A stretch of 37,066 bases of DNA from NCBI GenBank assembly GCA_016288755.1, contig JAEELE010000069.1, forward strand, positions 1-37,066, in the 5' to 3' direction. A model generated the notes under the pieces. The model saw only the letters and a program-made list of their open reading frames with translations, was not told the DNA's origin and ran no database searches. The stretch is from Oscillospiraceae bacterium (GTDB lineage Bacteria > Bacillota > Clostridia > Oscillospirales > Ruminococcaceae). Made by a program: the position numbers and the translations under genes. Position 1 is the first letter of the stretch, and the number at the start of each line of letters is the position of its first letter. Of the stretch, positions 3 through 30,667 are shown in pieces.

Positions 3-269
3 GGCGTCACGAGCGAGAATGTGCGCATCCTGCAGCAGTATCTGAGCTATATCGCACGCTTTGACCCGGCGGTGCAGGCAGTCTCGGACACCGGCTATTT
101 CGGACCGCTGACAAGGCAGTCGGTGCAGGGCTTCCAGCGGGAATACGGTCTGCCCGTGAACGGTCAGGTCGGTCCCGTGACATGGGACGCGGTCGCAGGG
201 GTCTATTCCGAGCTCCGCTGCGGTGCCGGCAAGCGCCCCTATCAGTCGCCCGGCTACACGATAAGATGA
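3..269 (+). CDS. Peptidoglycan-binding repeat protein, C-terminal part (5' end outside window)
   Basis: The reading frame is open from the window edge (codons from base 3 read GVTSENVRILQQYL) to a TGA at 267-269, so this is the tail of a longer gene. The GTG at 21 is unlikely to be the start because the repeat consensus (G-x-x-x-x-NVR-x-LQ-x-YL) already begins before it. The visible part is one PG_binding_1-type repeat ending in YGLPVNGQVGPVTWDAV, then a short tail (GYTIR). Such repeats bind cell-wall peptidoglycan and in clostridia often occur several per protein, including spore-wall proteins. The next gene carries paralogous repeats. The stop codon overlaps the first unit of a 7-bp repeat array. 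The full domain content cannot be judged from here. Confidence 0.8.
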   Translation, partial: GVTSENVRILQQYLSYIARFDPAVQAVSDTGYFGPLTRQSVQGFQREYGLPVNGQVGPVTWDAVAGVYSELRCGAGKRPYQSPGYTIR

Positions 270-412
270 GAAGTGAGAAATGAGAAATTAGAAATTAGAA
301 ATGCGCTCGAAGCCCTACAGGTAGGAGGTAGGAGGGAGCAGGTAGGAGGTGTTGTGCTGCCGTTATTCCCGCCGCTAAAAACAGAGTGACGGAACAACTT
401 CTCACTCCTCAT
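268..412. repeat. Heptad-repeat intergenic element, copy 1 (complete)
   Basis: In-phase 7-bp units GAGAAGT, GAGAAAT, GAGAAAT, TAGAAAT, TAGAAAT occupy 268-302. Units GTAGGAG, GTAGGAG, GGAGCAG, GTAGGAG follow at 321-348. The core GTGACGGAACAAC is at 386-398, followed by pyrimidine units TTCTCAC and TCCTCAT at 399-412. The first unit shares bases with the TGA stop of the upstream gene. The purine-left, core, pyrimidine-right order is shared with the other complete copies in this window. Confidence 0.85.
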
Positions 413-436
413 TACAACCCGCAATGGAGGTAATGT

Positions 437-949
437 ATGCTTTATACAGACAGTCAGCGCGCCGATCACATTGAAGAGATACTGGGGTATCTGTATCAGA
501 TCGCACTGAAGGACAGCCGCATCCCGATCGTGCTGCCGGGACGGGAATTCACCGACGAAGCAGGGCTGGCGGTGCGCGCCTTCCAGCAGGCATACGGTCT
601 GCCCGTGACCGGCGAGATCGACACCGATACATGGGACGCGATCGTCAGCGCCTATCACACACTGACCGACCCGCAGCTCCCGCTGGTGCTGTTTCCGGCG
701 CCGGGCTTTCTGCTCATGTCCGGCGATACCGGCGAGCTGGTGCATCTGACGCAGGTGCTGCTGAATCTGGCGGGGCGGCGGTTTGCAAATCTGCCGCAGA
801 TACCGGTCACCGGCAGCTATGATGAAGACACAGAGCAGGCAGTGCGCCGATTGCAGAGCATTTCGGGTCTGCCGCAGACAGGCAGGCTCGACCGCGACAC
901 ATGGAACCGTCTCGCCGCTCTGCTCAATCAGCTCACGCTCAGCGTTTAG
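437..949 (+). CDS. Small protein with two peptidoglycan-binding repeats
   Basis: A 170-residue protein with an ATG at 437 behind GGAGG with good spacing. It consists almost wholly of two PG_binding_1-like repeats, at roughly residues 10-74 (ending YGLPVTGEIDTDTWDAI) and 98-163 (ending SGLPQTGRLDRDTWNRL). No signal peptide, transmembrane segment or catalytic domain is visible, so it probably binds peptidoglycan without cutting it, or acts with a partner. The first repeat closely resembles that of the preceding gene, suggesting duplication of a repeat cassette. Proximity to ytvI, ylbJ, yqfC and yqfD suggests a spore-related role, which is inference. Its TAG stop lies inside the first unit of the next heptad array. 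Confidence 0.8.
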   Translation: MLYTDSQRADHIEEILGYLYQIALKDSRIPIVLPGREFTDEAGLAVRAFQQAYGLPVTGEIDTDTWDAIVSAYHTLTDPQLPLVLFPAPGFLLMSGDTGELVHLTQVLLNLAGRRFANLPQIPVTGSYDEDTEQAVRRLQSISGLPQTGRLDRDTWNRLAALLNQLTLSV

Positions 950-1079
950 AGGTTAGAGGTGAGAGGGAAGAGGTTAGAAGCGGAAGTTAGAAGCGAAACT
1001 TGGATGACGGAACAACGCCTCACTCCTCACTTCTAACTTGACCTCCGACCTCCTCCCCCCTCCCTCCTCATTTTTCATT
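946..1079. repeat. Heptad-repeat intergenic element, copy 2 (complete)
   Basis: Units TTAGAGG, TTAGAGG, TGAGAGG, GAAGAGG, TTAGAAG run from 946 to 980. After a 6-bp unit another TTAGAAG lies at 987-993. The core GATGACGGAACAAC is at 1003-1016. Pyrimidine units GCCTCAC, TCCTCAC, TTCTAAC, TTGACCT, CCGACCT, CCTCCCC, CCTCCCT, CCTCATT, TTTCATT then continue in phase to 1079. The first unit contains the TAG stop of the upstream gene. Left and right halves are imperfect reverse complements, so the transcript could fold into a long hairpin. Confidence 0.87.
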
Positions 1080-1100
1080 CCCCCGAAGGGTGGTGTAACA

Positions 1101-2207
1101 TTGCGCCGCACGATTCTGCACGACCGGCTGTTCCGGGTCACTGTGACCGCGGGGGGCGTGCTGCTGCTGCTGGCATTTGTCATTCTGCGCTATGAGGGCT
1201 TCTTCGCGATGCTCTCGCGGGTGCTGACCGCCTGCCGCCCGCTGCTGCTGGGAATCCTCTTTGCAGCAGTGCTCGACCCCGCCTATGAGCGCCTGCGCGG
1301 CGATCTGTCGCGCTTTCAGCTGCGTCACGGGCACGACCCGGAGGCAAAGTGGATCCGTGTCACGGCGGTCATCGGCGCGATTCTGCCGCCGCTGCTCGTG
1401 ACCGCGAGTGTGGTCTGTGTGCTGATCCCGCAGCTGCGCAATTCGGTCGAGCTGCTCTCCGGGAATTTCGACCGCTACAGCGGCGATCTGCTGCGAGCCG
1501 TGCAGAAATATCTGCCGACCGACCGCCTTGCCGATCTGCTGCGCGCGGTGCAGGAGCGGCTCCCCGCACTGCTGAAAAAGACCTATGACTATACCGCGGA
1601 GCTGCTGCACTGGCTGCTCGATATCGGCATCGGGGCTGTCTTCTCGCTCTATCTGCTCGCGGACAAGACCCGTCTGCGGGCGCAGCTTGCCTCGCTCTGC
1701 GGGCTCACCATGTCTCCGCAGACCATCCGGCGCTGGGCGAGGCGCGCCCGGCTCACCTGCGATACCTTTGCGCAGTTTCTCTCCTCGCAGCTCCGCGAAT
1801 CGCTGATTCTCGGGCTGCTGTGCTGGGCGGGCATGGTGCTGCTGCGCTTTCCGTATCCGGTGCTGATCTCGGTGCTCGTCGGCATCACGAACATCGTGCC
1901 CTATCTGGGTCCGCTGATCGGCACGGTGCCGGGCGCACTGCTGCTGCTGTTTGTCAAGCCCCCGGCGGTGCCGTGGTTTTTGCTCTATATCATCGTTCTG
2001 CAGCAGGTCGAGAGCAATTTCATCTACCCGCGCGTGGTCGGGCATTCGATCGGGCTGCCGCCTGCATGGGTGCTCGGCGCGATCGTGATCTGCGGCGGAC
2101 TGTTCGGCGGCATCGGGCTGCTGCTCGGCGTGCCGCTCGCCGCGGTCTGCTACGCCGTGCTCTTTCCCGACGATTCCGGCGATGACGCGGAAAAACCGCA
2201 GGGCTGA
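1101..2207 (+). CDS. AI-2E/YtvI-family integral membrane permease
   Basis: A 368-residue multi-spanning membrane protein of the AI-2E transporter (UPF0118, PerM/YtvI) family. TTG at 1101 is chosen because an AAGGGTGGTG Shine-Dalgarno lies just upstream; a longer frame from 1038 would run through the heptad repeat. A hydrophobic N-terminal pair is followed by a hydrophilic central stretch and then several C-terminal helices holding the family signature GITNIVPYLGPLIG. B. subtilis YtvI is a sporulation-associated member, and ylbJ, yqfC and yqfD follow, so the sporulation branch is likely. AI-2 export itself is not shown by the sequence. The coding region ends 37 bp before the chosen ylbJ start, probably in one operon. 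Confidence 0.85.
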   Translation: MRRTILHDRLFRVTVTAGGVLLLLAFVILRYEGFFAMLSRVLTACRPLLLGILFAAVLDPAYERLRGDLSRFQLRHGHDPEAKWIRVTAVIGAILPPLLVTASVVCVLIPQLRNSVELLSGNFDRYSGDLLRAVQKYLPTDRLADLLRAVQERLPALLKKTYDYTAELLHWLLDIGIGAVFSLYLLADKTRLRAQLASLCGLTMSPQTIRRWARRARLTCDTFAQFLSSQLRESLILGLLCWAGMVLLRFPYPVLISVLVGITNIVPYLGPLIGTVPGALLLLFVKPPAVPWFLLYIIVLQQVESNFIYPRVVGHSIGLPPAWVLGAIVICGGLFGGIGLLLGVPLAAVCYAVLFPDDSGDDAEKPQG

Positions 2208-2244
2208 CCTTCTGATTCTGAATACACCGCCCCGAGGTGATCTC

Positions 2245-3354
2245 ATGCGAAACCGTCTGCCGCAGGCGCTCGCGGCGATCGCGCTGCTCCTGCTGCTCCT
2301 TCTCACGGCACACCGCGCCGACGCAGCGGCAGCGGTCATTTCCGACCGGCTGCGGCTCTGCGCGGAAACGCTGATTCCGTCGCTCTTCGGCTGCACGCTT
2401 CTCGCCGACCTGCTGCGCGAGAGCGGCGCGGGACAGTGGCTCGGCGGACGGCTCGGGCTGCTCCGACGGGCACTGCGGCTCTCCTCCGCGCTGACCGGCA
2501 TTTTTCTGGTCAGTCAGCTCGCGGGATATCCCGTCGGGGCGATGCTGCTGCGGCAGGAATGCGAACGCGGCAGGCTCTCCGAATCCGACGCCGCTGTCTT
2601 CTCGTGTGCGGCATTCGGCGGCGGACCCGCGTTTCTCGTCGGGCTGTGCGGCGTGCAGCTTTTCGGGAGCGCTGCGGCAGGCTGGCTGCTGTGGGGCGCC
2701 TGCTTTGCCGCAAACTGTGCCGCCGCCCGGCTGCTCTCGCCGCGCAGTGTCCCGTTACATCCGCCTGCGCCCGTGCACTTCACCGTGACCATGATCCCGC
2801 AGGCAGTCTCCGGCACGGTCGCAGGAATGCTGCAAATATGCGGAACAGTCGTGCTCTTCGGGCTTGCCGCGTGGCTCTGCGAGCTGCTCGGCATTGCGGC
2901 GATTCTCGTGAAAATCGGCGCACTTGCGGGCATTTCCGCACAGACCGTCCGGGCGGCAGCCGCAGCCGTGCTCGACGTGACCCGGCTGACCGAGCTTCTG
3001 CACTGCGGCATCCGGTTTCAGGTGCTGCTCCCGCTGACGGCGGCGATGCTGTCCTTCGGCGGACTCTGCGTGCAGATGCAGTGTCTCGCACTCGGGGTGC
3101 GCGGGATGCGTCCGCTGCGGCTGCTGTGCACAAGGCTGCTGACCGCGCTGCTCGCGGCACTGCTGACCGCGCTCGCCGTGCCCCTTCTGCCGCTGCCCGA
3201 AGCCGCTCCGGCGATGGCACAGGGCGCAGAAATTTCGCAGACCGGCTCTCTGCTCCCGGGCATCCTGATTCTGCTGACGGGCTTCCCGGTCGCGCTGTAT
3301 CTGCGGGATGACACGCGGGAAGAAAGCCGCATGATCCGCCGGCGCAGCGCATAG
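2245..3354 (+). CDS. ylbJ: Sporulation integral membrane protein YlbJ-like
   Basis: A 369-residue, very hydrophobic protein starting at ATG 2245 behind GAGGTGAT; an in-frame upstream extension overlaps the previous gene and lacks a ribosome site. The pattern LIPSLFGCTLLADLL, then GYPVGAMLLRQECERG, then FGGGPAFLVGLCGVQLFGS matches YlbJ, a nucleoside-recognition (Gate-domain) membrane protein needed at a late stage of spore formation in Bacillus. Leu- and Ala-rich helices fill most of the rest and the tail is short and basic. It is followed after 24 bp by yqfC, supporting a spore role. Many annotations would say only nucleoside recognition domain protein; the transported or sensed ligand is unknown. 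Confidence 0.82.
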   Translation: MRNRLPQALAAIALLLLLLLTAHRADAAAAVISDRLRLCAETLIPSLFGCTLLADLLRESGAGQWLGGRLGLLRRALRLSSALTGIFLVSQLAGYPVGAMLLRQECERGRLSESDAAVFSCAAFGGGPAFLVGLCGVQLFGSAAAGWLLWGACFAANCAAARLLSPRSVPLHPPAPVHFTVTMIPQAVSGTVAGMLQICGTVVLFGLAAWLCELLGIAAILVKIGALAGISAQTVRAAAAAVLDVTRLTELLHCGIRFQVLLPLTAAMLSFGGLCVQMQCLALGVRGMRPLRLLCTRLLTALLAALLTALAVPLLPLPEAAPAMAQGAEISQTGSLLPGILILLTGFPVALYLRDDTREESRMIRRRSA

Positions 3355-3378
3355 ACTGGAACTACGGAGGGATGCAGA

Positions 3379-3606: not shown

Positions 3607-3616
3607 GGTGCCCGTT

Positions 3617-8465: not shown

Positions 8466-10842
8466 ACTCGCAAACGATTACATCACACTCGAGCTGCACA
8501 AGGTGCTCGAGATGCTCGCCAATGAGGCGGCAAACGAAAAAACAAAGGAAATGGCGCGCGCACTCATCCCCGAAACGGATGCAGCGCGCGTGCAGCATGC
8601 CCTGCAGCAGACCGAGGACGCCTTTCAGCTCTCGGTGCGCTTCGGGTCGCCCGGCTTTGACAGCTTTCACGACGTCTGCGCTTCGGTGCAGCGGGCACAG
8701 TCGGGCGCACGCATCTCGCTGAAGGAGCTGCTCGAGATCGCGCGGCTGCTGCGGCAGATCTCCTCCCTCGCAGACTGGTATGCCCACTGCGACAATGTCA
8801 CCACCACGCTCTCCGACCTCTTTCTGCGGCTCCAGCCCGACCCCTATCTCGCAGACCTGCTGGAGCGCTCGATCGAGACCGAGGAGCGCCTTTCCGATGC
8901 GGCAAGCCCGGCGCTCGGGCAGCTCCGCAGAAAGATCGCGCAGGCAGGACAGCGCCTGCGGGAGCGTCTGGAGAAAATGATCAAGTCCGCTTCAATGCAG
9001 ACCTATCTGCAGGAGGCGATCGTCACCATCCGCGACGGGCGCTATGTCATCCCGGTCAAGGCGGAATACCGCGGCGAGGTCGCAGGTCTCATTCACGATA
9101 CCTCCGCGACCGGTCAGACCTATTTCATCGAGCCGATGGCGATTGTCGAGGCGAACAACGACATCCGCCTGCTCGAATCGCAGGAGCAGGAGGAGGTCGA
9201 GCGCATCATTGAGATGCTCTCGAACGAATGCGGACAGCACGCCCCGGCACTGCTGCAGGGCTATGAGATCGCCGCAGAGCTCAACCTCTATTTTGCAAAG
9301 GCATCGCTCGGCGCAATGCAGAAGGGCGTCATCCCCGAGATCAACGACGCCGGCGAGATTCTGCTCAAAAAGGCGCGGCATCCGCTGCTCGACCCCAAGA
9401 CCGTCGTGCCGATCACGCTGTCGCTCGGCGGCGATTACCGCGCCCTCATCATCACCGGACCGAATACCGGCGGCAAGACCGTCGCGCTGAAAACGGTCGG
9501 GCTGCTGACCGCAATGGCGATGTGCGGGCTGATGATTCCCGCGGCAGACGGCAGCAAAATTTCGGTGTTTGACCGCGTGCTTGTCGATATCGGCGACCGG
9601 CAGAGCATCGAATACAATCTCTCGACATTCAGCGCACACACCTTGCAGGATATCGAAATTCTGCAAAAAGCCGACGACCGCAGCCTTGTGCTCATGGACG
9701 AGCTTGGCTCGGGCACCGACCCGGTCGAGGGTGCGGCGCTTGCGGTCGCGATCATCGAGCGGCTCAAGGCGCAGGGCGCAATTCTCATGGTGACGACGCA
9801 CTATCAGGAGCTCAAGCGCTATGCGGTCGAGGCACAGGACGTCGAAAACGCTTCGTGCGAATTCGACCTCGAAACGCTCAAGCCCACCTACCGGCTGATT
9901 ATCGGGTCGCCCGGCAAATCGAATGCGTTCGCGATTTCCGCGTCGCTCGGCATGCCCGATGATGTGATCGCGCAGGCAAAATCGCTCGTCAGCACGGAAA
10001 ACCAGCGCTTTGATACGGCAGTCGCCGAGCTCGAGCGCGCCAGAGCCGAGCTCGACCGCCAGAATGCAGAGCTCGAGCAGCTGCGCAGAGCAGCCGCCGA
10101 GCATGAGCGCGTCCTGCGCGAGCAGGCAGAGCATGCGACCTCCGTGCGCGAGGAAGCAATCCGGCAGGTGCGCGAGCAGGCAAGGCGCATCATCGAGCAG
10201 GCGGCGGCGGAATCCGGCGCACTGATCGAGGAGCTGCGCGAGCTGAAAAAAGAAAAGGACCGCGCCGATTTCGCCGAGAAGATCGCGGCAGCGCGCACGA
10301 AATCGCGGCAGACCGTCGACCGGCTCTACGCTGAGACCGACATGGCGGACGAGGGCGAGAATTACCGCCTGCCGCGTGCACTGGTCATCGGCGACACGGT
10401 GCGCCTTGTGCAGACAAACCAGATCGGCACGGTGGTCGCAGCGCCCGACGGCAAGACCGTCAGCGTGGCGGTCGGCGCGATGAAAATGCGCGTGCCGGTC
10501 ACGGCGGTGCGGCTCGAGGAGAAAAAGCCCGACCAAAAGCCCAAGCAGACGCATACGATCGTCAAGCGCAGCAAGGAGAGCAGCAGCGGCGGGCGGCGTC
10601 CCGGCACGGAGCTCGACCTGCGCGGCTGTACCGTCGACGAGGGCATTTCACTGATCGAGCAGTTTCTGTCGTCGTCGATGCTCTCAGGCTTTGAGACCGT
10701 GACGCTGATTCACGGCAAGGGCACCGGCGCGCTGCGCAAGGGCGTCCACGACTACCTCAAGCGCAACAAGCATGTCAAATCCTTCCGCCTCGGCGTCTAC
10801 GGCGAGGGCGAGGACGGCGTGACCATCGTCACGCTGAAATAA
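8458..10842 (+). CDS. mutS2: Endonuclease/ATPase MutS2 (ribosome rescue and recombination control)
   Basis: A 794-residue protein, the usual MutS2 length. The N-terminal MutS core and clamp region is followed by an ATPase with Walker A GPNTGGKT at 334-341 and Walker B LMDELGSGTDPVEGAAL around 412. A long charged coiled coil rich in Glu, Arg and Ala spans roughly 510-630. A C-terminal Smr domain begins near 715 (TELDLRG) with the HGKGTG motif at 752. MutS2 lacks the mismatch-recognition domain of MutS; it is linked to suppression of recombination and, in Bacillus, to splitting collided ribosomes, which suits the neighbours era and ybeY. The stop is followed almost at once by a heptad array. 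Confidence 0.96.
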   Translation: MDKLANDYITLELHKVLEMLANEAANEKTKEMARALIPETDAARVQHALQQTEDAFQLSVRFGSPGFDSFHDVCASVQRAQSGARISLKELLEIARLLRQISSLADWYAHCDNVTTTLSDLFLRLQPDPYLADLLERSIETEERLSDAASPALGQLRRKIAQAGQRLRERLEKMIKSASMQTYLQEAIVTIRDGRYVIPVKAEYRGEVAGLIHDTSATGQTYFIEPMAIVEANNDIRLLESQEQEEVERIIEMLSNECGQHAPALLQGYEIAAELNLYFAKASLGAMQKGVIPEINDAGEILLKKARHPLLDPKTVVPITLSLGGDYRALIITGPNTGGKTVALKTVGLLTAMAMCGLMIPAADGSKISVFDRVLVDIGDRQSIEYNLSTFSAHTLQDIEILQKADDRSLVLMDELGSGTDPVEGAALAVAIIERLKAQGAILMVTTHYQELKRYAVEAQDVENASCEFDLETLKPTYRLIIGSPGKSNAFAISASLGMPDDVIAQAKSLVSTENQRFDTAVAELERARAELDRQNAELEQLRRAAAEHERVLREQAEHATSVREEAIRQVREQARRIIEQAAAESGALIEELRELKKEKDRADFAEKIAAARTKSRQTVDRLYAETDMADEGENYRLPRALVIGDTVRLVQTNQIGTVVAAPDGKTVSVAVGAMKMRVPVTAVRLEEKKPDQKPKQTHTIVKRSKESSSGGRRPGTELDLRGCTVDEGISLIEQFLSSSMLSGFETVTLIHGKGTGALRKGVHDYLKRNKHVKSFRLGVYGEGEDGVTIVTLK

Positions 10843-10850
10843 CGGAGCAG

Positions 10851-10948
10851 CTCTTGCCTCTTGCTTCCGGCTTCTTGCCTCTGGCTTCCGGCTTCTTGCC
10901 TCTGGCTTCCGGCTTCTTGCCTCTCATTTCTAACTTCTAACCTCTAAA
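10851..10948. repeat. Heptad-repeat array, pyrimidine half only (14 units in phase)
   Basis: Exactly 14 in-phase 7-bp units: CTCTTGC twice, then a 21-bp pattern of TTCCGGC, TTCTTGC, CTCTGGC repeated twice, then TTCCGGC, TTCTTGC, CTCTCAT, TTCTAAC, TTCTAAC, CTCTAAA. The array fills nearly the whole gap between mutS2 and the CPBP gene and runs into the AAAAGGAG Shine-Dalgarno of the latter. No core sequence or purine half is present. Confidence 0.92.
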
Positions 10949-10961
10949 AGGAGTGAACACC

Positions 10962-16372: not shown

Positions 16373-17563
16373 ATGAAGATCAGCGGCATTATCTGCGAAT
16401 ACAATCCCTTTCACAACGGTCACCTCTATCACATCGAGCAGACCCGGAAGCACGGCGCGACGCATATTGTCGCGGTCATGAGCGGCAACTTCGTGCAGCG
16501 CGGCGACGTCGCGGTCATCAACAAATTCGAACGCGCCCGCACTGCCGTCCGCTGCGGCGCCGACCTCGTGATCGAGCTGCCCGTCGCCTACTGTCTGAGC
16601 GCCGCGGAGGTCTATGCCAAGGGCGCGATGTATATTCTCAAGGGGCTCGGCTGTGTCGATGAGCTCTCCTTTGGCAGCGAGTGCGGCGATCTGCAGCTGC
16701 TGACCGAAGCAGTCCGCGCGACCTATGCCTGCGCGAAGATGCCCGAGCTCGAGGAGCTGATGAAGCGCGGCAGTTCCTATCCCAAGGCGCTGCAGATCCT
16801 GATCCGCCAGAATTACGGCGACGAGCTCGGCGCGCTGTTCAGCTATCCGAACAATGTCCTCGCGATCGAATATCTCAAGGCGATGATCGCGCTGAAGCTG
16901 AAGATCGAGCCGTTCACGGTCAAGCGCAGTGCCGCGCACGACAGCCGCATGCCCGAGGGCAATGTCGCAAGTGCCTCGCTGATCCGGCAGCTGATGGAGA
17001 ACGAGAACGACGATTTTGACGATCTCGTGCCGGAGGATTCCTCTGCCGCGCTGAGCGCCTGTGCCGCAACGGGTATGACCGCGCGCTTTGAGAATCTCGA
17101 GCGCATTCTGCTCTACAAGCTGCGCACCGCGACCGCCGAGGAGCTGAGCGAGCTGCCGGAGGTCGGGCAGGGGCTGGAGAACAAGATCCTCTCCGCCCGC
17201 AACGAGACCTCGCTGGAATCCATGCTGCTCGCGATGAAGTCCAAGCGCTACCCGATGGCACGCCTCAGACGCATTCTGCTCGACCTGCTCATCGGCATCA
17301 AGCCCTCCGACACGGACGCGCCCCCGCCCTACGGCAGGATCCTCGCCCTGAGCGAGCGCGGCAGGGATATCCTCACCGCGGCAAAGCATGCCGGCACGAC
17401 GCTCCCCTATGCGACCTCGCTGGCAAAGCTCGCCGAGCTCGGCGGCGCCTGCCAGAGCTGCGCGGAGCTCGAGGCGCGCGCGACCGCAGTCTACGGTCTG
17501 GCACAGCGCTCCATCAGCCCCGCCGACGCCGACTATAAGGCGATGATCGGAATGGCGAAGTGA
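16373..17563 (+). CDS. tmcAL: tRNA(Met) cytidine acetate ligase TmcAL
   Basis: A 396-residue protein starting MKISGIICEYNPFHNGH. The nucleotidyltransferase motif HNGH is at residues 14-17. The following SGNFVQRGDVAVINKFERA and the AADLVIELP-like stretch (here GADLVIELPVAYCLSAAE) are characteristic of the YlbM/TmcAL family. TmcAL uses acetate and ATP to make N4-acetylcytidine at the wobble base of elongator tRNA-Met in Firmicutes. Location near ackA fits an acetate theme and resembles the ylbM-pta-ack neighbourhood of related bacteria. Length is normal and no damage is seen. Its TGA stop overlaps a degenerate heptad array. Confidence 0.95.
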   Translation: MKISGIICEYNPFHNGHLYHIEQTRKHGATHIVAVMSGNFVQRGDVAVINKFERARTAVRCGADLVIELPVAYCLSAAEVYAKGAMYILKGLGCVDELSFGSECGDLQLLTEAVRATYACAKMPELEELMKRGSSYPKALQILIRQNYGDELGALFSYPNNVLAIEYLKAMIALKLKIEPFTVKRSAAHDSRMPEGNVASASLIRQLMENENDDFDDLVPEDSSAALSACAATGMTARFENLERILLYKLRTATAEELSELPEVGQGLENKILSARNETSLESMLLAMKSKRYPMARLRRILLDLLIGIKPSDTDAPPPYGRILALSERGRDILTAAKHAGTTLPYATSLAKLAELGGACQSCAELEARATAVYGLAQRSISPADADYKAMIGMAK

Positions 17564-17611
17564 GGACGGGGAGAGCAGGGGCGGAACAACTCCTGACTGT
17601 TCATTCCGCAT
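17561..17611. repeat. Heptad-repeat element, degenerate copy
   Basis: Units TGAGGAC, GGGGAGA, GCAGGGG run from 17561, with the tmcAL TGA as the first three bases. The core GGCGGAACAAC lies at 17580-17590, then TCCTGAC, TGTTCAT, TCCGCAT. The order matches complete copies but the units have drifted. Confidence 0.6.
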
Positions 17612-18161: not shown

Positions 18162-18187
18162 GCTCCGGCGGAAAAGGACGGGCCCAT

Positions 18188-18222
18188 TTCTAATTTCTAA
18201 TTTCTAATTTCTAATTGCTCAT
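18188..18222. repeat. Heptad-repeat array, pyrimidine half only
   Basis: Four identical TTCTAAT units (18188-18215) followed by TGCTCAT. The array ends about 20 bases before the TTG start of the solute-binding protein gene and may have displaced its Shine-Dalgarno, which is weak. Confidence 0.85.
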
Positions 18223-18243
18223 TTACTGATTGGACGTGAAACA

Positions 18244-19903: not shown

Positions 19904-20686
19904 ATGCGAGCAGTTACATGGAATGTCAACGGGCTGAGAGCCTGCGAGAAGAAGGGCTTTGCGGAATTCTTCGCAGAGATCGGCGCGGATATCTTCTGCA
20001 TTCAGGAGACGAAAATGCAGGAGGATCAGCTCTCCGCGCTGAAATGGGCACTGCCGGAGGGCTATCACGCCTACTGGAACAGTGCGGAGAAAAAGGGCTA
20101 TTCGGGCACGGCGGTCTTTGTGCGGGAGGAGCCGATCGCGGTCACGCGCGAGATGGAGACCGGCGGCGTCGCTGACGAGGGGCGCGTGCTGACGCTGGAA
20201 TACCCGGGGTTCTATCTGGTCAACGCCTATGTGCCGAATGTGCGGCGCGACCTGTGCCGCATCCCGCTGCGGATGGAGTGGGAGGACGCGCTGCGGGCGC
20301 ATCTGCTGCAGCTGGACGCGAAAAAGCCCGTGCTCTACTGCGGCGACCTGAACGTCGCGCACCAGCCGATCGACCTGAAAAACGCAAAAGCCAACGAGGG
20401 CAACGCGGGCTATACCGCTGAGGAGCGCGGCAAAATGACCGAGCTGCTCGCCGCGGGCTTTGCCGACGCGTTCCGCGAGAAATACCCCGACCGCACCGAC
20501 GCCTATACATGGTGGTCGTACATGGGGCGCGCCCGCGAGAAGAATGTCGGCTGGCGCATCGACTACTGGATCGTGTCGCGGCGGCTGACGCAGCAGGTCG
20601 AGGATGTGATCATTCACCCGGAGGTCATGGGCAGCGATCACTGCCCGGTGGAGATACTGATCAGAAATCAGAGTTTAGATAATTAG
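19904..20686 (+). CDS. Exodeoxyribonuclease III
   Basis: A 260-residue protein starting at ATG 19904 with GAGGAACGGA upstream. Family motifs in order are AVTWNVNGLRA, FCIQETKMQ (metal-binding Glu), LYCGDLNVAH, GWRIDYWIVS and a final GSDHCPVE with the catalytic Asp-His pair. It belongs to the ExoA/XthA apurinic endonuclease and 3'-5' exonuclease family in base-excision repair. The start lies 13 bp after the lipoprotein gene. The TAG stop at 20684-20686 is part of the first unit of a complete heptad element. Confidence 0.95.
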   Translation: MRAVTWNVNGLRACEKKGFAEFFAEIGADIFCIQETKMQEDQLSALKWALPEGYHAYWNSAEKKGYSGTAVFVREEPIAVTREMETGGVADEGRVLTLEYPGFYLVNAYVPNVRRDLCRIPLRMEWEDALRAHLLQLDAKKPVLYCGDLNVAHQPIDLKNAKANEGNAGYTAEERGKMTELLAAGFADAFREKYPDRTDAYTWWSYMGRAREKNVGWRIDYWIVSRRLTQQVEDVIIHPEVMGSDHCPVEILIRNQSLDN

Positions 20687-20769
20687 AAGTTAGAAATGAG
20701 GAGTGAGGAGTGAGGAGTTGTTCCGTCACCAAACCTCTAACTCCTCACTTCTCACTGCTCACGCCGAAC
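20683..20769. repeat. Heptad-repeat intergenic element, complete, core inverted
   Basis: TTAGAAG, TTAGAAA, then three TGAGGAG units (20683-20717), then GTTGTTCCGTCAC (20717-20729), the reverse complement of the core seen in copies 1 and 2. CTCTAAC, TCCTCAC, TTCTCAC, TGCTCAC, GCCGAAC follow to 20769. The exonuclease stop codon lies inside the first unit. Confidence 0.88.
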
Positions 20770-20860: not shown

Positions 20861-21994
20861 TCAGAAGGTGACGCTGACGAACGGCTCGTCCGCGATGACG
20901 CGGATCGTGACCGTATCATAGCTCCATGCGGACAGCGCCGCATTGTAGCTGAACGTGACCGTGCCCGCATTGTACTGCGTCTGGTTGGCATTGCCGCTTG
21001 TGCAGCCGACATGCGTGATATTCGGCGCATACTGAATGAAGAATCTCAGCTTCGTCGTGTCGGTGTGCTTGATGCCGCTGTTGTTGTAGATAATGACCGA
21101 CAGCGTCTGCGAATACTGGTCGGTGCCGTAGCGCTCGCACTTGCCCAGCTTCACATTCTTCACAACGAGCTCGGGCTGCGACGGCGCAGTCGTCGTCGTG
21201 GTCGTGGTCGTCGTGGTTTTGGTCGTCGTTGTCGTGATCTTTGTGGTCGTTCTGGTCGTCGCGGACGTGGTTCTGGTCGTGGTTCTGGTCGTCGTGGACG
21301 TGGTCTTGGTTGTGGTTCTGGTGGTCGAAGTCGTCGTCCTTGTCGTCGGGGTCGTGGTTCTGGTCGTCGTCGACGCGGTCGTTCCGGCGGTCGTCGTGCG
21401 CGAGGTGCCTGCCGACGAGGTCGTCTGGAGAGTCGGTGCACTGGTGCTCGACGGCGAGACATACCCTGCCGAATCCACGCCGGTGGAAGCGGAGCGTTCT
21501 GTCTCGGTCGTGCGGCTCGCGGTCGTCACGGAATCAGACGGCAGCGTGCCTGCGGAGGTCTCCGCCTTCTTTGAGCTGTCGGGGCGCTCAGGGCTTGTTG
21601 TGACCGCCGATGTGCGCTCTGACTCCTCCTGCTCCTGCGGCGTGGTTTCCGCCGGATCATCCGGCTCTGCCTGCGTGTCTGCGGCGGACTGCTGCGAAGG
21701 CTCAGAATCCACGGTCTGCGTCACGGAGCTCTCCTCCGGCAGCCGCAGCTCGGGACCGCGGTTCAGAAAGCGAACGCCGGCAAACAGTGCGATGCCGCAG
21801 ACCAGCACGAGCGCCGCCGCGACGGTCAGCGGCGTTCTGTTACGACCGATCCATGCCGACAACCCGACCGAGCGCCTCCTGTGCCTGTGCCGGTGTCCGA
21901 GCGCCTTGCGCTGGTCACGCATAAAGACCTCGGTCGCGCGGTCAAGATGATCGATATCGGAAAAATCCTTTTTGGTTTTCGGTTCACGGCTCAT
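20861..21994 (-). CDS. Membrane-anchored protein with long Thr-rich linker and C-terminal beta-type domain
   Basis: A 377-residue protein. ATG 21994 is preferred over a GTG three codons earlier because GGGGTG lies six bases before it. Residues 1-54 are cytoplasmic and basic (GHRHRHRRR), and 55-75 form one transmembrane helix, giving an N-in anchor. Residues 80-195 are Ser-, Thr-, Glu- and Pro-rich. Residues 195-272 are almost pure Thr with regular Arg or Lys (TTRTTT-like repeats), a stiff linker of the kind seen in ruminococcal surface and cellulosomal proteins. The last 104 residues alternate in a beta-sheet-like way (LSVIIYNNSG, TKLRFFIQYAPN) and match no family I recognise. No catalytic motif is evident. 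Confidence 0.8.
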   Translation of the reverse strand: MSREPKTKKDFSDIDHLDRATEVFMRDQRKALGHRHRHRRRSVGLSAWIGRNRTPLTVAAALVLVCGIALFAGVRFLNRGPELRLPEESSVTQTVDSEPSQQSAADTQAEPDDPAETTPQEQEESERTSAVTTSPERPDSSKKAETSAGTLPSDSVTTASRTTETERSASTGVDSAGYVSPSSTSAPTLQTTSSAGTSRTTTAGTTASTTTRTTTPTTRTTTSTTRTTTKTTSTTTRTTTRTTSATTRTTTKITTTTTKTTTTTTTTTTAPSQPELVVKNVKLGKCERYGTDQYSQTLSVIIYNNSGIKHTDTTKLRFFIQYAPNITHVGCTSGNANQTQYNAGTVTFSYNAALSAWSYDTVTIRVIADEPFVSVTF

Positions 21995-22671: not shown

Positions 22672-22693
22672 GTGCAAAAACCCAAAAAGGAAA

Positions 22694-22854
22694 CGGAAAA
22701 CGGAAAATGAGAAATGAGAAATGAGAAGTGAGAAATGGCGCGGGGGACGCTGAGGTAGGAGGGAGGAGGTAGGAGGGAGGAGGGAGGAGGGAGGAGGGAG
22801 GAGGGAGGAGGTCGAGTTAGAAGTGAGGAGTGAGGAGTGAGGAGTTGTTCCGTC
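22694..22854. repeat. Heptad-repeat intergenic element, long purine half plus core
   Basis: Units CGGAAAA twice, TGAGAAA twice, TGAGAAG, TGAGAAA (22694-22735). Then GTAGGAG, GGAGGAG, GTAGGAG and five GGAGGAG (22755-22810). Then TTAGAAG and three TGAGGAG (22817-22844), followed by GTTGTTCCGTC (22844-22854), the inverted core. No pyrimidine half follows. The G-rich run could form unusual DNA (triplex or quadruplex). Confidence 0.88.
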
Positions 22855-22956
22855 GCTGCGATGTCTGCTGCTGATTGCGAAAAACATTGGGAGTATCGAC
22901 CCATAAGAAGGCGCGCCAGCGCCGTGTGTTACGCAAATTGGGAGAAGATGCAAAAC

Positions 22957-23030
22957 GGCTCGCGGAGCCAAAATGCCAGCGCGGGCTCCGCGCCCCGCGG
23001 GGGCTCCCCGCCCAGCCCGGGCTCCGGGCT
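22957..23030. repeat. Cluster of four perfect short hairpins
   Basis: GGCTC-GCG-GAGCC (22957-22969), GCGCGG-GCT-CCGCGC (22979-22993), GCGGGG-GCT-CCCCGC (22997-23011) and AGCCCGG-GCT-CCGGGCT (23014-23030). The last three share a GCT loop and the centre GGGCTCC, so they look like diverged tandem copies. The stretch 22855-23139 otherwise holds no gene that I can support; the downstream CPBP-like gene has a possible TATACT -10 at 23107-23112 but no clear -35. Confidence 0.8.
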
Positions 23031-25886: not shown

Positions 25887-25910
25887 TTGTATCTGCTTGA
25901 AAATGCAAAC

Positions 25911-26170: not shown

Positions 26171-26268
26171 GATGTCCTCATGATGCGCCTGCAAATACTG
26201 ATTTGCTGCAGGAACACAATTCTGAAAAGGGACTGTATCAAAATCAACTATGGAAAGGAACATCTGCC

Positions 26269-27609
26269 ATGATTTATCCGAAGCTCGACCGTGACTTTGT
26301 CCCTGCGGTGTATTTCAACCGCGACTTTCTCAAAACCGCGAGCCGTCCGTTCTCCGTCGCCGTGGAGCGCGAGGACGGGCTGGTCTACCGCCGCGACACC
26401 AAGCTCGGCGACGACTACGCACAGAACTGCCGCTATGCGGAGCGCCTGATCAAGACGATGCTCTGGTGTGCAGGCGGCTGGAAGGTCATGATCGCGGGCG
26501 ACGAGGCGGTCTTCAGCTACATCCGCGACGCCTACACAAAGACTGGTCTGCGCGCCTTCGACGTCGATTTCTGGAGCACGACCTATGAGCGCGGCTTCGA
26601 GGTCGAGCAGCGCGATTTTGCGGATATGCCGCAGACCACCGTGCGCCCGCTCGCCATCGGCAGAAACCTTGACGGCTGCAGAGTCGGCTTTGACGCGGGC
26701 GGCAGCGACATGAAGGTCGCCGCGGTCGTCAACGGCGAGACCGTCTGGGCAGAGGAGATCGTCTGGCTCCCGAAGCTCGCCGAGGATATCTCCTATCACC
26801 ACGAGCACATCAAGGCGGCAATCCTCAAGGCAGCAGAGCACATGCCCTCGTTTGACGCAGTCGGCGTCTCGACGGCGGGCGTGCTGGTCGCGAACCGCGC
26901 AATGGTCTCGCATCTGTTCCTCAAGGTCCCGAAGGATACGCAGGGCGACGCCTGCAAGAACGTCTATGTCGACGTGCTCGAGGAGCTCGGCGTTCCCTAT
27001 GCTGTTGCCAACGACGGCGACGTTGCGGCACTGGCGGCTTCGATGGCAATGAATGTCAACGGCGTGCTCGGCATCGCAATGGGCACCTCCGAAGCGGGCG
27101 GCTACATCGACCAGCAGGGGCATGTCACCGGCTGGCACAATGAGCTCGCGTTCGTGCCGGTCGACTACAACCCCGACGCACCGGTCGACGAGTGGTCGGG
27201 CGACTACGGCTGCGGCGTCAAGTATTTCTCGCAGGATGCGGTCATCCGCCTTGCACCGAAGGCGGGCATCGTGCTCGATGAGAGCCTGACACTCGCCGAA
27301 AAGCTCAAGGCGGTGCAGAAGGTGCTCGAAGAGGGGCACGAGGGCGCGAAGGATATCTTCCGCACGATCGGCACCTATTTCGGCTATGCGATCGCGAATT
27401 ATGCGGATTTCTACGACATCTCCTATCTCCAGATCAGCGGGCGCGTGACCTCGGGTCTCGGCGGCGATCTGATCATCGAGGAGGCAAAGCGCGTGCTCGC
27501 AGAGGAGTTCCCGGAGCTCGCAAAGAAGATCGAGTTCATTCTCCCCGACGAAATGGACAGAAGAGTCGGACAGGCGGTCGCGGCGGCATCGCTGCCGGCG
27601 ATCGGATAA
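26269..27609 (+). CDS. ROK family protein (probable sugar kinase) with extra N-terminal domain
   Basis: A 446-residue protein. ATG 26269 has AAAGGAA eight bases upstream. The ROK/ASKHA core begins at about residue 138: GFDAGGSDMKVAAVV is the phosphate-1 loop, usually D-x-GGT, and ANDGDVAAL at 248-256 supplies the catalytic Asp region (N249-D250). GTSEAGGYI is the phosphate-2 region. The usual ROK zinc motif C-x-C-G-x-x-G-C-x-E is not intact (only GDYGCG at 311-316). Residues 1-130 precede the core and match nothing I know. With NagA downstream, N-acetylglucosamine or a related hexosamine is a plausible substrate, but this is inference. The stop abuts the next ATG (1-bp gap). Confidence 0.75.
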   Translation: MIYPKLDRDFVPAVYFNRDFLKTASRPFSVAVEREDGLVYRRDTKLGDDYAQNCRYAERLIKTMLWCAGGWKVMIAGDEAVFSYIRDAYTKTGLRAFDVDFWSTTYERGFEVEQRDFADMPQTTVRPLAIGRNLDGCRVGFDAGGSDMKVAAVVNGETVWAEEIVWLPKLAEDISYHHEHIKAAILKAAEHMPSFDAVGVSTAGVLVANRAMVSHLFLKVPKDTQGDACKNVYVDVLEELGVPYAVANDGDVAALAASMAMNVNGVLGIAMGTSEAGGYIDQQGHVTGWHNELAFVPVDYNPDAPVDEWSGDYGCGVKYFSQDAVIRLAPKAGIVLDESLTLAEKLKAVQKVLEEGHEGAKDIFRTIGTYFGYAIANYADFYDISYLQISGRVTSGLGGDLIIEEAKRVLAEEFPELAKKIEFILPDEMDRRVGQAVAAASLPAIG

Positions 27610-27610
27610 C

Positions 27611-28042
27611 ATGGAGAAAAAACAGCGCCGCATTCACGGGGGCATTGCCGCAGCTGCACTGCTGATCGCGTGTGCGGCTGCGTTCGGCATCATCTGGGGG
27701 CAAAAGGGGCACATCTCCGGTGCTGTGCGCACGATCGGGAAGTCCGAACGCTTCCCGGAGGCAGAGCTCGAAAGCGCGGCTGATGCCATGTATGAGTACT
27801 TCGAGCAGAACCTCAAGGGCTGCACGCTGCTGTCGGTCACCTATGACGAGGAGCGCTCCGAGGCGGAGAAACGCGGCTCACGAAGCGCCGATACTGTGGT
27901 GCTGTTTTCCGATTTCTACGCGCCGCATTTCTTCGGCTCCGAGAAGACCTCAAACATCGGCGGCAGGCAGCACGACTTCAAATGGATCCTGCGCAAAAAC
28001 GTCAGCGGCAGCTGGGAGGTCATCACTTACGGCTACGGCTGA
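27611..28042 (+). CDS. Small secreted or membrane-anchored protein, possibly DUF4829-like
   Basis: A 143-residue protein from ATG 27611, one base after the ROK stop, so translation is probably coupled. Residues 10-28 (GGIAAAALLIACAAAFGII) form a signal anchor after a basic start. The outer part has SERFPEAELESAADAMYEYF, GCTLLSVTYDEERSE, VVLFSDFYAPHF and a closing WKILR-like/WEVI pattern (FKWILRKN, SWEVITYGYG). I recall the same order in small clostridial proteins sometimes labelled DUF4829, but the match is from memory. Function is unknown. Its place inside a sugar operon is unexplained. Confidence 0.65.
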   Translation: MEKKQRRIHGGIAAAALLIACAAAFGIIWGQKGHISGAVRTIGKSERFPEAELESAADAMYEYFEQNLKGCTLLSVTYDEERSEAEKRGSRSADTVVLFSDFYAPHFFGSEKTSNIGGRQHDFKWILRKNVSGSWEVITYGYG

Positions 28043-28077
28043 TCCTCACAGATTCCGTTCCGCGGCAGAAACGAAAA

Positions 28078-28118
28078 GTGACGGAACCGTTTCTCATTTT
28101 CCACTTCTCATTTCTGAC
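28078..28118. repeat. Heptad-repeat element, core plus pyrimidine half
   Basis: Core GTGACGGAACC (28078-28088), then TTCTCAT, TTTCCAC, TTCTCAT, TTCTGAC in phase (28091-28118). No purine half precedes it. It lies between the small anchored protein and the NagA fusion. Confidence 0.72.
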
Positions 28119-28156
28119 TTTTTTCTGAAACAGAAGCTACAGAAAGGACATTCGCT

Positions 28157-30337
28157 ATGATTCTGAAAAACCTGCTCTTTGAGGGCAAGCTGACCGATAT
28201 CACGGTCGAAAACGGCACGATCACCGCGATCGAGCCCGCATCGGGCACCGGCGAGGGCACGGACTGCTCCGGGCTGACCGTCATTCCGGGTCTGGTCGAC
28301 ATGCACACGCACGGCTGCGTCGGCTATGACACGATGGACGCGCACTTCGAGGAGATGAGCGTCTTCCTCGCAAAGAACGGCACGACCTCGTGGCTGCCGA
28401 CCACCATGACGATGGACTACGACTCGATCCTGCGCGTCACGCAGGCGACCAGAAAGGTTTCCGGCGCACAGATCCTCGGCTTCCACATGGAGGGACCGTA
28501 CATCAACGAGAAGCGCAAGGGCGCGCAGAACGGCAAATTCATCAAGAATCCCGACCTCGCCGAGTTCCGGACGCTCGACGGCATGAAGGTCGTCACGATC
28601 GCGCCGGAGCTCGAGGGAAGCCTCGAATTCATCCGGGAATGCGGCGCGCTGGTCTGCATCGGGCACACCGACGCGGACTACGACACCTGCATCGGGGCGA
28701 TCGAGGCGGGCGCAAACTGTCTGACCCACACCTTCAACGCGATGCCGGGCATCCACCACCGCAACCCCGGTCCGATCGGCGCGGCGGTGAAGAAGAATAT
28801 CTATGTGCAGGCGATCACCGACGGGCTGCATCTGCATCCGGCGATCGTGCTGATGCTCTATAAGACCTTCGGTCCGGAGCGCATGGTCATCATCAGCGAC
28901 GCAATGCGCGCGACGGGCTTGGGCGACGGCATCTACGAATTCGGCGGACAGGATATCGAGGTCAAGGACGGCGTGGCGCGCACGATGGACGGCGCGATCG
29001 CGGGCTCAACCTCGACGCTCTGGCGCTGCGTCAAGCAGGCAACTGCCTTCGGCGTGCCGTTTGAGGATGCCGTGCGCATGGCGACCAGAACCCCTGCCGA
29101 CATGATCGGCGAGCCGAAGAAGGGCAGGATCGAGGTCGGTGCGGACGCCGATCTGCTGCTGCTCGACGGCGACCTCGAGCTCAGCCGCGTGATGATCGCG
29201 GGCAGATTCATCGAGAATTACGCGCCGCAGCATGAGGCATATCTCGCGGAGAAGGCGCATATCGAGCAGATCGCGTCGCTCTTCCGCGCGCCGGGCAGAT
29301 TCATCGGCAGCGAAACGCTCAGTCAGGGCAATATCAACGCGACCTACCGTGTCGATTTCCGGCAGGACGACAGCTCGGTGAAGTCGTTCATTCTCCAGCG
29401 CGTCAACACCTATGTGTTCCCGCACCCGGTCGAGATCATGGAGAACATCCGGCGCGTGACGGCGCATATCCGCGGCAAGGTCTCCGGCAAGCCGGTGCTG
29501 CACTTCTATGAGACCGCATCCGGCGAGAATTACTACATCGAAAACGAGGGCGCCTTCTGGCGCATGGAGGACTGCATCAACGGCGTCTGCTATGATGCGG
29601 TCGATTCGCTCGATACCCTGCGCAATGCCGGTGCGGCATTCGGCGACTTCCAGAATCAGCTCGCCGATTTCCCCGCAGATACGCTCTTTCCGACGATTCC
29701 CGATTTCCACAACACCGCCAAGCGCCTCGAGACCTTCTTCGCGGCGGTCGGGGAGGACAAGTGCGGACGTGCCGCATCGGTCGGCGATGAGATCGCGTTC
29801 ATCCGCGAGCAGCGCGCGCTGGCGTCACAGCTCAGCGAGATGCAGGAGAAGGGCGAGGTGCCGCTCCGTGTGACGCACAACGACACCAAGACCAACAATG
29901 TCATTATGGACCGTGCGACCGGTGCGCCGCTGACGGTCATCGACCTCGACACCGTGATGCCGGGGCTTGCGATGCACGATTTCGGCGATGCGGTGCGCTT
30001 TGCGGCGAATACCGCAGCCGAGGACGAGCCCGACACCGCAAAGGTCTCGCTCGATCTGGAGAAGTTCCGCGCATTTGCGGAGGGCTTCATCGGCAGCACG
30101 GCAGGTGCGCTGACAGAGCAGGAGATCGGCACGATGGCACTGGGCGCGATCACGATCACGATCGAGCTTGCGGTGCGTTTCCTGACCGATTATCTGATGG
30201 GCGACCCGTATTTCAAGATCAACTATCCGGAGCACAATCTGGTGCGTGCGCGCTGCCAGATCGCGCTGGCAAAGGATATGCTGGCAAAGCGCAGCAGCAT
30301 GGAGCAGATCATCGCAGAGATCGCAGCAAATCACTGA
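28157..30337 (+). CDS. Fusion: N-acetylglucosamine-6-phosphate deacetylase plus NahK-like kinase
   Basis: A 726-residue fusion from ATG 28157 with AGAAAGGA upstream. Residues 1 to about 355 are a NagA-type amidohydrolase: H50-T-H52 in DMHTHG, E112 in HMEGPYINEKRKGAQN, H170 in IGHTDAD, H191 in THTFNAMP and catalytic D248 in ISDAMRATG. It would convert GlcNAc-6-phosphate to GlcN-6-phosphate and acetate. Residues about 365-726 are an APH-fold kinase close to NahK: the nucleotide-loop stretch GNINATYRVDF near 391, FILQRVNTYVFPHP, the catalytic HNDTKTNN at 574-581 and IDLDTVMPG at 595-603 with metal-binding D596/D598. NahK phosphorylates GlcNAc or GalNAc at C1. Both parts keep their active-site residues and no frameshift is seen at the junction. 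It follows the ROK and small-protein genes. Confidence 0.88.
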   Translation: MILKNLLFEGKLTDITVENGTITAIEPASGTGEGTDCSGLTVIPGLVDMHTHGCVGYDTMDAHFEEMSVFLAKNGTTSWLPTTMTMDYDSILRVTQATRKVSGAQILGFHMEGPYINEKRKGAQNGKFIKNPDLAEFRTLDGMKVVTIAPELEGSLEFIRECGALVCIGHTDADYDTCIGAIEAGANCLTHTFNAMPGIHHRNPGPIGAAVKKNIYVQAITDGLHLHPAIVLMLYKTFGPERMVIISDAMRATGLGDGIYEFGGQDIEVKDGVARTMDGAIAGSTSTLWRCVKQATAFGVPFEDAVRMATRTPADMIGEPKKGRIEVGADADLLLLDGDLELSRVMIAGRFIENYAPQHEAYLAEKAHIEQIASLFRAPGRFIGSETLSQGNINATYRVDFRQDDSSVKSFILQRVNTYVFPHPVEIMENIRRVTAHIRGKVSGKPVLHFYETASGENYYIENEGAFWRMEDCINGVCYDAVDSLDTLRNAGAAFGDFQNQLADFPADTLFPTIPDFHNTAKRLETFFAAVGEDKCGRAASVGDEIAFIREQRALASQLSEMQEKGEVPLRVTHNDTKTNNVIMDRATGAPLTVIDLDTVMPGLAMHDFGDAVRFAANTAAEDEPDTAKVSLDLEKFRAFAEGFIGSTAGALTEQEIGTMALGAITITIELAVRFLTDYLMGDPYFKINYPEHNLVRARCQIALAKDMLAKRSSMEQIIAEIAANH

Positions 30338-30344
30338 ATCATCG

Positions 30345-30372
30345 CCCCCGCAGACATCCCGTCTCGCGGGGG
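30345..30372 (+). terminator. Hairpin after the NagA-kinase fusion
   Basis: CCCCCGC (30345-30351) pairs with GCGGGGG (30366-30372), a 7-bp GC stem eight bases after the stop. There is no T run, so termination efficiency is uncertain. Confidence 0.5.
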
Positions 30373-30390
30373 CTGATGCTGGAGGGGTAA

Positions 30391-30667
30391 TGAGAAGGGA
30401 GAAATGAGGAGGCAGAAGGTAGGAGGTAGGAGGGCGGAGGGAGGAAGGAAAAGAATATAGAATAGTGAATAATGGCGGAATCGCATGTTTGCGAGCAAAC
30501 TGCGCAGTTTTGCGTTGCAAAACGTGCGCTTCGCGATGATTTTGAATGGGCTTCGCCCAAGCCCCGTTTGCGCCCGTCATTTCAGCGGCTGATCTCGGAT
30601 AACGGAACAACTCCTCACTGCTCACTCCTAATTGCAGCGCCCTCATTTCTCACTTCTCCCTTCTCAT
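30391..30667. repeat. Heptad-repeat intergenic element, complete, with inserted hairpins
   Basis: Purine units TGAGAAG, GGAGAAA, TGAGGAG, GCAGAAG, GTAGGAG, GTAGGAG, GGCGGAG, GGAGGAA, GGAAAAG (30391-30453), decaying into AATATAG. The core ATAACGGAACAAC ends at 30611. Units TCCTCAC, TGCTCAC, TCCTAAT, TGCAGCG, CCCTCAT, TTCTCAC, TTCTCCC, TTCTCAT follow to 30667 and run straight into a TTGACA -35 box. About 145 bp with several hairpins separates the halves. Confidence 0.87.
30487..30559. repeat. Hairpin cluster inside the heptad element
   Basis: GTTTGC-GA-GCAAAC (30487-30500), the palindrome AAACTGCGCAGTTT (30497-30510), GTTTTGC-GTT-GCAAAAC (30507-30523) and TGGGC-TTC-GCCCA (30547-30559). Neighbouring stems share arms, so alternative folds compete. 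No gene is present. Confidence 0.72.

Follow-up and report, generated by a model that had tools for sequence, protein, structure and literature searches.

Repetitive extragenic palindromes (REPs) and bacterial interspersed mosaic elements (BIMEs), which go with REP-associated tyrosine transposases (RAYTs), are short intergenic hairpins with a conserved flank and an inverted pairing; to our knowledge, arms made of heptads are no part of REPs. Miniature inverted-repeat transposable elements (MITEs) are short and non-coding, have inverted ends and lie interspersed in genomes, with filled and unfilled sites. Repeats of seven nucleotides form a third kind, called short tandemly repeated repetitive sequences (STRRs) in cyanobacteria. 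With these systems we compare a set of intergenic elements built of 7-bp units, or heptads, in a stretch of 37,066 nucleotides (the window; contig C92, JAEELE010000069.1) from the 3.47-Mb draft genome, 94.7% complete, of a gut-type Oscillospiraceae bacterium (G000).

Repeats of heptanucleotides are on record from distantly related bacteria, with no consensus on where they come from or what they do. Heptameric repeats are over-represented in many bacteria, the Nostoc unit being GGGGA(C/T)T (PMC4692102). A second study describes direct repeats of TAACTGA in Beggiatoaceae as well as in 15 cyanobacteria and 5 Bacteroidetes; close strains differ by 7-nt indels, and some relatives have shorter gaps and no repeats (PMC4679880). 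A third source reports 'class 3' sites in Geobacter metallireducens, multicopy and made of five tandem heptads with the consensus MTYCTGA, drawn as strand-switching pairs (PMC2700814).

The elements described here form, somewhat more likely than not, a MITE-like family specific to this lineage, whose short, non-coding members are interspersed in intergenic DNA and have inverted heptad arms. Periodicity was measured in a sample of 437 kb (400 kb of the genome and the window; 59% GC), in which a crude codon-usage finder written for the analysis called 361 genes and left 232 intergenic regions of at least 30 bp. Self-similarity at lag 7 (at least 15 matches of 21) was reached in 50/232 intergenic regions, in none of the 232 after one dinucleotide shuffle per region, and in 3 of the 361 genes. 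Lags 14 and 21 followed with 38 and 25 intergenic regions, while each of the remaining lags from 3 to 22 stayed at or below 7 at the same threshold. The sample had 82 lag-7 runs, and 2 of the 82 lay mainly inside genes. Beyond the window, 68 intergenic runs per 400 kb extrapolate to about 590 for the genome.

A core sequence accompanies the heptads. Counted over the whole genome with up to one mismatch, TGACGGAACAAC has 168 copies (80 forward, 88 reverse) against 20 (10 and 10) for the reversed pattern as control, interspersed over many contigs in either orientation. The core followed by its first heptads occurs 156 times (control 0), and three consecutive heptads 463 times (control 7). On one contig (C96), three exact cores stand at 8682, 8774 and 8866, and this spacing of 92 bp suggests that a unit of the same length has been triplicated in tandem.

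A sequence-only reading had proposed such a family from at least nine intergenic sites of the window, with a core common to the copies in both orientations, to be given up if there were no enrichment elsewhere in the genome or if shuffled sequence did as well. Both comparisons were run; enrichment was found genome-wide and against the shuffles, and the claim stands. Seven of its nine sites reach the lag-7 threshold; 17561-17611 and 28078-28118 fall below it, yet hold core variants. Its avoidance of coding sequence is confirmed by the position of the runs, though arms frequently abut or run across a stop codon. At two of its sites, 10851-10948 and 18188-18222, a pyrimidine array stands alone without core.

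The anatomy of the elements is well defined. In 51 distinct contexts, the core is directly joined to heptads reading T-CCTCACT-CCTCACT-NCTCACT-NCTMAYT, a consensus that fades with distance. The heptad consensus, taken from 57 arrays with 247 units, is NCTMAYT: positions 2, 3, 5 and 7 hardly change, and positions 1, 4 and 6 vary (at position 4, C stands in 187 units, A in 58, G in 2 and T in 0). The earlier description of variable units at a fixed period thus holds for the period, whereas the unit is not freely variable. By eye, an NCTNCCT block often comes after TTGA or TCGA, followed by an outer TCTCATT block, and mirror-image purine arms lie on the opposite side of the element. Consecutive arrays of opposite orientation place the purine arm first in 9/9 cases (p 0.004), which agrees with the constant polarity claimed beforehand. 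Since the left side is purine-rich and the right side pyrimidine-rich on either strand, a single strand can form a foldback. For the compact copy at 20683-20769 the fold is strong on the plus strand (z -6.1) and on the minus strand (z -5.1); the score is -3.0 for 946-1079 and just -1.65 for 267-412.

A full copy would consist of an interior, a hairpin module or another spacer, flanked by inverted arms of 7-bp units. The main end in this species is the core GTGACGGAACAAC joined to pyrimidine heptads. The interiors of 56 core copies fit the pattern of module M1 in 14 cases (2 of them also M2), M2 alone in 9, M3 in 7 and none of the three in 26. Module M2, a multicopy and structured-looking sequence of about 150 bp that begins with CCCGGAGCCCGGGC and contains TGCACGGCGCT, is present at 22856-23013 of the window, in another locus (L083) from 7549, in L085 from about 3568, and in congeners. 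M3 corresponds to the long inverted repeats of two intergenic stretches of about 880 bp in L083 (373-1253 and 9164-10042), which adjoin core-heptad ends. Rfam gave no match at gathering score in the window, and all 16 matches in L083 and L085 were below gathering scores. An overlapping copy of the first element of the window, on contig C8, is 97.7% identical over 603 bp, with no unit gained or lost and no gap in this one pair.

A second end is formed by a hairpin and ACCNNMAYT that lead into the same heptads; it occurs in congeners and, in this genome, at a smaller share of the ends. Congener heptads frequently follow a hairpin plus ACC and lack the present core. Sites were picked solely by ACCNNMAYT followed by a single heptad, and the ACC was touched by a perfect hairpin (stem of at least 5, loop of 3-5) at 8/10 sites of this genome and 16/19 congener sites, 24/29 together, and at 1/8 sites from other families of the order, the other 7/8 failing. 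All 37 sites gave 25 hairpins, as against 19 in 3700 shuffles. These 25 have 15 different 5' stem sequences, and therefore the pairing is kept while the sequence changes.

The hairpin criterion was altered stepwise, from a stem of at least 7 bp near the array to 5 bp, to a fixed 6-3-6 form and lastly to any stem of at least 5 touching the ACC. The first and stricter test (at least 7 bp within 14 nt of the array) found no hairpin at 59 arrays of this genome, nor at 4 each of G001 and G002; it found 2/7 in G012, 1/9 in G007, 6/10 in G179 and 1/4 in G096. With the stem relaxed to 5 bp, for which random positions gave 5-14%, the counts were 4/5 in G001, 4/6 in G002, 6/7 in G012, 2/11 in G007, 2/4 in G028, 7/11 in G179, 2/4 in G096, 1/1 each in G023, G202, G139 and G108, and 0/1 in G213. 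A complete 6-3-6 stem precedes the ACC at 12/37 sites. In G179, which belongs to another family of the order, the hairpins beside 6/10 arrays reach 11 bp and by eye several lie between inverted arms. In this genome the core end dominates, because the core is found at 38/59 arrays and 5-bp hairpins at 6/59, no commoner than at random positions (9%).

The arms cluster at gene 3' ends. On the outer side of an arm, a gene 3' end lies within 3 bp or overlaps in 16/43 cases and lies within 30 bp in 24/43, whereas a gene 5' end comes within 3 bp in 1/36 and within 30 bp in 6/36; the difference between 16/43 and 1/36 has a p of 0.0002. A gene 3' end is found within 3 bp of the inner side in 1/45. In these counts the limits of runs are uncertain by up to one unit, and a region with two runs enters twice. 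Typical joints of stop and arm read [TGA]AATGAGAAATGAG, and by eye promoter-like sequence starts right behind the pyrimidine arm in several cases. Arrays occur in 36/197 intergenic regions bordered by a gene 3' end and in 2/22 divergent ones, which is not a significant difference. Close to arrays, within 12 bp, TAG stops are in excess (5/20 against 17/326, p 0.005), which indicates only that some genes now end within an array.

The combination of core and heptads is almost private to this species; of 60 other genomes, two have a single copy, and these are congeners (2/29 congeners). Exact matches to the core pattern in genome contigs numbered 7; six are chance-like and by eye without heptad context, and the seventh is real, a core-heptad end in a metagenome-assembled genome titled Ruminococcus sp. 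(L063). Three heptads in a row are found in 9/29 congeners, with counts of 118, 87, 51, 25, 18, 8, 4, 2 and 1 (control at most 1). The core therefore does not define the family, being near-private while heptad arrays, often without it, occur in these congeners; of the shared core as a family mark, the reality of the core remains. Congener stretches are poorer in lag-7 runs than this genome; G001 has 7 (6 at lag 6) and G028 has 1 (6 at lag 6). In the rest of the order, 11/196 genomes hold three heptads in a row (G096 59, G179 28, G126 10, G108 7 with a control of 2, the other seven at most 5), the smallest counts meaning little since match-free genomes show up to 3 control matches. Outside the order, TMAYT at 7-bp steps occurs 1428, 951 and 815 times in three Nostoc/Calothrix genomes, against 291, 157 and 18 in the control. 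ACCNNMAYT followed by two heptads was met in no other of 398 genomes of the phylum, few of them of the order, and searches of phages, plasmids and viral contigs gave no match.

The comparison with 10 congeners took in four complete junctions and one half of another. Between tsaD and a methyltransferase gene, this genome has 261 bp with an element, and six congeners (G002, G003, G008, G009, G028, G029) have 20-29 bp between the same projected points, by eye with overlapping stop and start (ATGA) in 3 of the 6. In G021 and G025 this place is taken by another repeat (290 and 302 bp); in G010 one additional gene is present, and the flanks are not adjacent in G004. Behind recA, the element directly follows a stop conserved with G028; the corresponding distance is 89 bp in G028 and 121 bp in G002, and G004 and G025 contain a gene-sized insert. 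The sequence-only reading had suggested looking for synteny breaks and empty sites in sister strains: presence and absence are seen at these two junctions, in comparison with congeners of about 83% identity or less. Behind the Exo_endo_phos gene, whose closest congener matches are 83% identical in a comparison set with no nearer strain, no heptad array was seen by eye in the 16 congener loci readable in sense (of 27), and at least two of the congener loci (L097, L099) carry another repeat. This long palindromic repeat of the congeners (GTATC.. GGGACA..TGTCCC) stands right behind stop codons, without heptads, in L097, L099, L232 and L238.

The reading as a MITE-like family draws on multicopy interspersion, the fixed core-heptad joint, the polarity, the covarying hairpin end, the position at stop codons and presence or absence at two junctions, all of which are observed. 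Copies would spread by insertion through an enzyme acting in trans, and arm length would change by gain and loss of units. Gene 3' ends might be favoured because an insert is harmless there, or because they are targeted.

Several points weigh against this reading. No transposase is linked to the ends, although transposase genes were not searched with the ends, and Y1_Tnp was not found in this genome, 94.7% complete as it is, and is found in 3/30 of the genus. Just two junctions are comparable, comEC-holA having given the right flank only in three loci tried. The relatives, judged by the gene tested, reach about 83% identity at most, and insertion is indistinguishable from loss. No target-site duplication is shown, as the divergence of congeners between genes leaves the right-hand joint unfixed. 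Consecutive array pairs share one orientation in 6/15, several arrays have a single arm and no core, and no single full-length unit emerges, because 26/56 core copies fit none of the three module patterns. M2 copies within the genome are mostly 80-84% alike (matches to 22753-23013 of the window), and the lone near-identical copy pair shows no change in unit number. REPs driven by a RAYT were rejected, as no Y1_Tnp was found in this genome.

The arrays could instead be simple heptanucleotide satellites (STRRs, or simple sequence repeats) grown by replication slippage in neutral DNA, an explanation that we regard as unlikely. The strict 7-bp period, the intergenic location and the abundance of TMAYT arrays at 7-bp steps in the three Nostoc/Calothrix genomes speak for it, as do 7-nt indels reported between close Cyanothece strains (PMC4679880) and a polymerase-slippage idea for heptamers (cited in PMC4692102). 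However, slippage predicts neither a shared core with a fixed joint to the heptads, nor inverted pairing of purine and pyrimidine arms, nor hairpin ends, and the near-identical pair of copies has neither gained nor lost a unit.

Only a minor chance, too, is given to functional 3'-end elements, that is, foldback hairpins that would end or protect transcripts without Rho and would have been spread or kept for that role. The arms located behind stop codons and the folding of 20683-20769 and 946-1079 are consistent with such a role, and so is the rarity of Rho, with Rho_RNA_bind in 0/30 genomes of the genus and 3/197 of the order. Sites resembling intrinsic terminators stand behind 1/25 of the 3' ends abutted by arrays and 29/164 of the others; this difference is not significant (p 0.14), and arrays inside operons would give the same. 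The weak fold of 267-412 argues against the role, as do orthologous 3' ends in congeners, which manage without heptad arrays.

A bolder version of the mobile-element reading appears doubtful. It would posit a new class with degenerate 7-nt tract ends (both 3' ends pyrimidine), a dedicated enzyme with a specificity of 7 nt that adds or maintains these tracts, an adjoining hairpin-ACC recognition end and insertion at the 3' junctions of genes. A mechanism common to Nostoc, Beggiatoa and these Firmicutes, instead of chance slippage, would in that case explain why TMAYT heptads recur in them.

Bidirectional Rho-dependent terminators, whose purine arm would close all frames and whose C-rich arm would be a Rho utilization (rut) site, are extremely improbable: polarity and C-rich, G-poor pyrimidine arms would fit, and all three frames are closed within the outermost 35 nt of the purine strand in 36/80 arms (5/80 on the other strand, 13% in base shuffles), but permuting heptad columns already closes all frames in 38%, and Rho-dependent termination is practically eliminated because Rho_RNA_bind is found in 0/30 genomes of the genus by a search positive in 9/14 known control genomes. 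Stops in all frames were also rejected as the reason for a period of 7, given that permutation value and the T at position 4 that makes TAA, present in 0/247 units; they show no enrichment over the level set by period and unit composition. The three genomes of the order with Rho_RNA_bind all belong to one genus.

The elements of the window are given in Table 1.

Table 1. Arms, cores and interiors of the heptad elements in the window
Feature	Position	Strand	Remarks
Outer heptad arm, purine on + (GAGAAAT/TTAGAAA units)	261..308		lag-7 run; overlaps upstream gene stop 267-269
Second heptad arm, purine on + (GGTAGGA units)	315..352		lag-7 run
Core TGACGGAACAAC, then short pyrimidine arm to 412	387..398	+	
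Heptad arm, purine on +	935..980		lag-7 run; contains TAG stop 947-949 of gene
Core TGACGGAACAAC	1005..1016	+	
Pyrimidine arm: NCTMACT block, TTGA joint, NCTNCCT block	1017..1080		lag-7 run 1012-1080
Pyrimidine-only array, no core: 21-bp unit of three heptads, then TCTAACT units	10850..10950		fills MutS2-like/Rce1-like gene gap
Degenerate copy, weak arms, little periodicity; core variant GCGGAACAAC at 17581-17590	17561..17611	+	below lag-7 threshold
Pyrimidine-only array (TCTAATT units), no core	18179..18227		lag-7 run
Heptad arm, purine on +, of compact foldback copy	20680..20724		holds TAG stop 20684-20686 of Exo_endo_phos gene
Core TGACGGAACAAC	20717..20728	-	
Pyrimidine arm	20729..20769		lag-7 run; complementary to much of 20680-20724
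Outer heptad arm, purine on + (GAGAAAT units)	22677..22741		lag-7 run
Inner heptad arms, purine on + (GAGGGAG block, then AGTGAGG block)	22748..22851		lag-7 run
Core CGACGGAACAAC	22844..22855	-	
Interior multicopy module M2, limits approximate	22856..23013		sequence matches over 22753-23013; congeners too
Variant core GTGACGGAACCGTT and short pyrimidine arm	28078..28118	+	below lag-7 threshold
Heptad arms, purine on + (GAGAAAT, then GGAGGTA units)	30391..30452		lag-7 run
Interior module M1 (AATAATGGCGG, then short hairpins), limits approximate	30455..30599		like sequence elsewhere in genome
Core variant TAACGGAACAAC (30600-30611) and pyrimidine arms	30600..30676	+	lag-7 run; ends at TTGACA-like -35

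The variant core form GTGACGGAACCGTT recurs elsewhere in the genome. Two other repetitive stretches were met: at 21189-21372 of the window, a low-complexity, GTC/GTG-rich segment within the reverse-strand gene 20861-21994, and at 1468-2450 of L068, tandem units of about 140 bp (GTGAAAGCAGCCG..) that take up much of a 983-bp intergenic region and are unrelated to the heptads.

With a definite anatomy, a position at stop codons and species-level differences within a genus, the origin of the heptads and their effect on gene 3' ends become directly testable, and this in an order of which only 3/197 genomes searched gave the termination factor Rho.

Among known systems, MITEs share with these elements the short, non-coding and interspersed nature, in part the inverted ends, and the filled and unfilled sites, the latter seen here at the tsaD and recA junctions with the direction of change not fixed. 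The arms of 20683-20769 are complementary and the 9/9 pairs keep one order, as expected of inverted terminal repeats; yet many copies are one-armed and arm length varies. Unlike MITEs, the ends are variable 7-bp arrays instead of fixed terminal repeats, and parent transposon and target duplication are not known. REPs and BIMEs resemble the elements by an intergenic hairpin with a conserved adjoining motif (GGT/ACC here, 24/29 sites of this genome and congeners) and by inverted pairing, and differ by the lack of Y1_Tnp in this genome.

Tandem 7-bp units in intergenic DNA at many loci are common to STRRs and to this genome (lag 7 in 50/232 intergenic regions, 3/361 genes). STRRs are described, in the sources as available, as tandem arrays, and a plain direct array of one unit, as we understand the term, is not what is found here: units are degenerate at fixed positions, and inverted arms surround a core or hairpin module that stands at many inner ends. 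The TAACTGA repeats are also intergenic heptads of patchy, distant lineages, and their register GATAACT fits NNTMAYT; by contrast, they consist of one unit, lie in Maribeggiatoa mostly just upstream of start codons, and come with no core or hairpin in the accessible description (PMC4679880). The class 3 sites of Geobacter metallireducens are multicopy inverted pairs whose YCTGAMT is close to NCTMAYT, although in the available text they amount to 16 sequences only, are read by their authors as possible IHF/HU sites and have no described core or hairpin end (PMC2700814).

The initial statement that the architecture is unlike any class was thus too strong, since cyanobacteria, Beggiatoaceae and Bacteroidetes are known to carry heptad arrays (PMC4679880) and Geobacter metallireducens to carry them as inverted pairs (PMC2700814). 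In the literature searched, mainly non-subscription, neither this paired element nor heptads from Ruminococcus-like bacteria were described. Heptads as such are a known kind of repeat, among which the paired architecture of arms around a core or hairpin is a novel variant.

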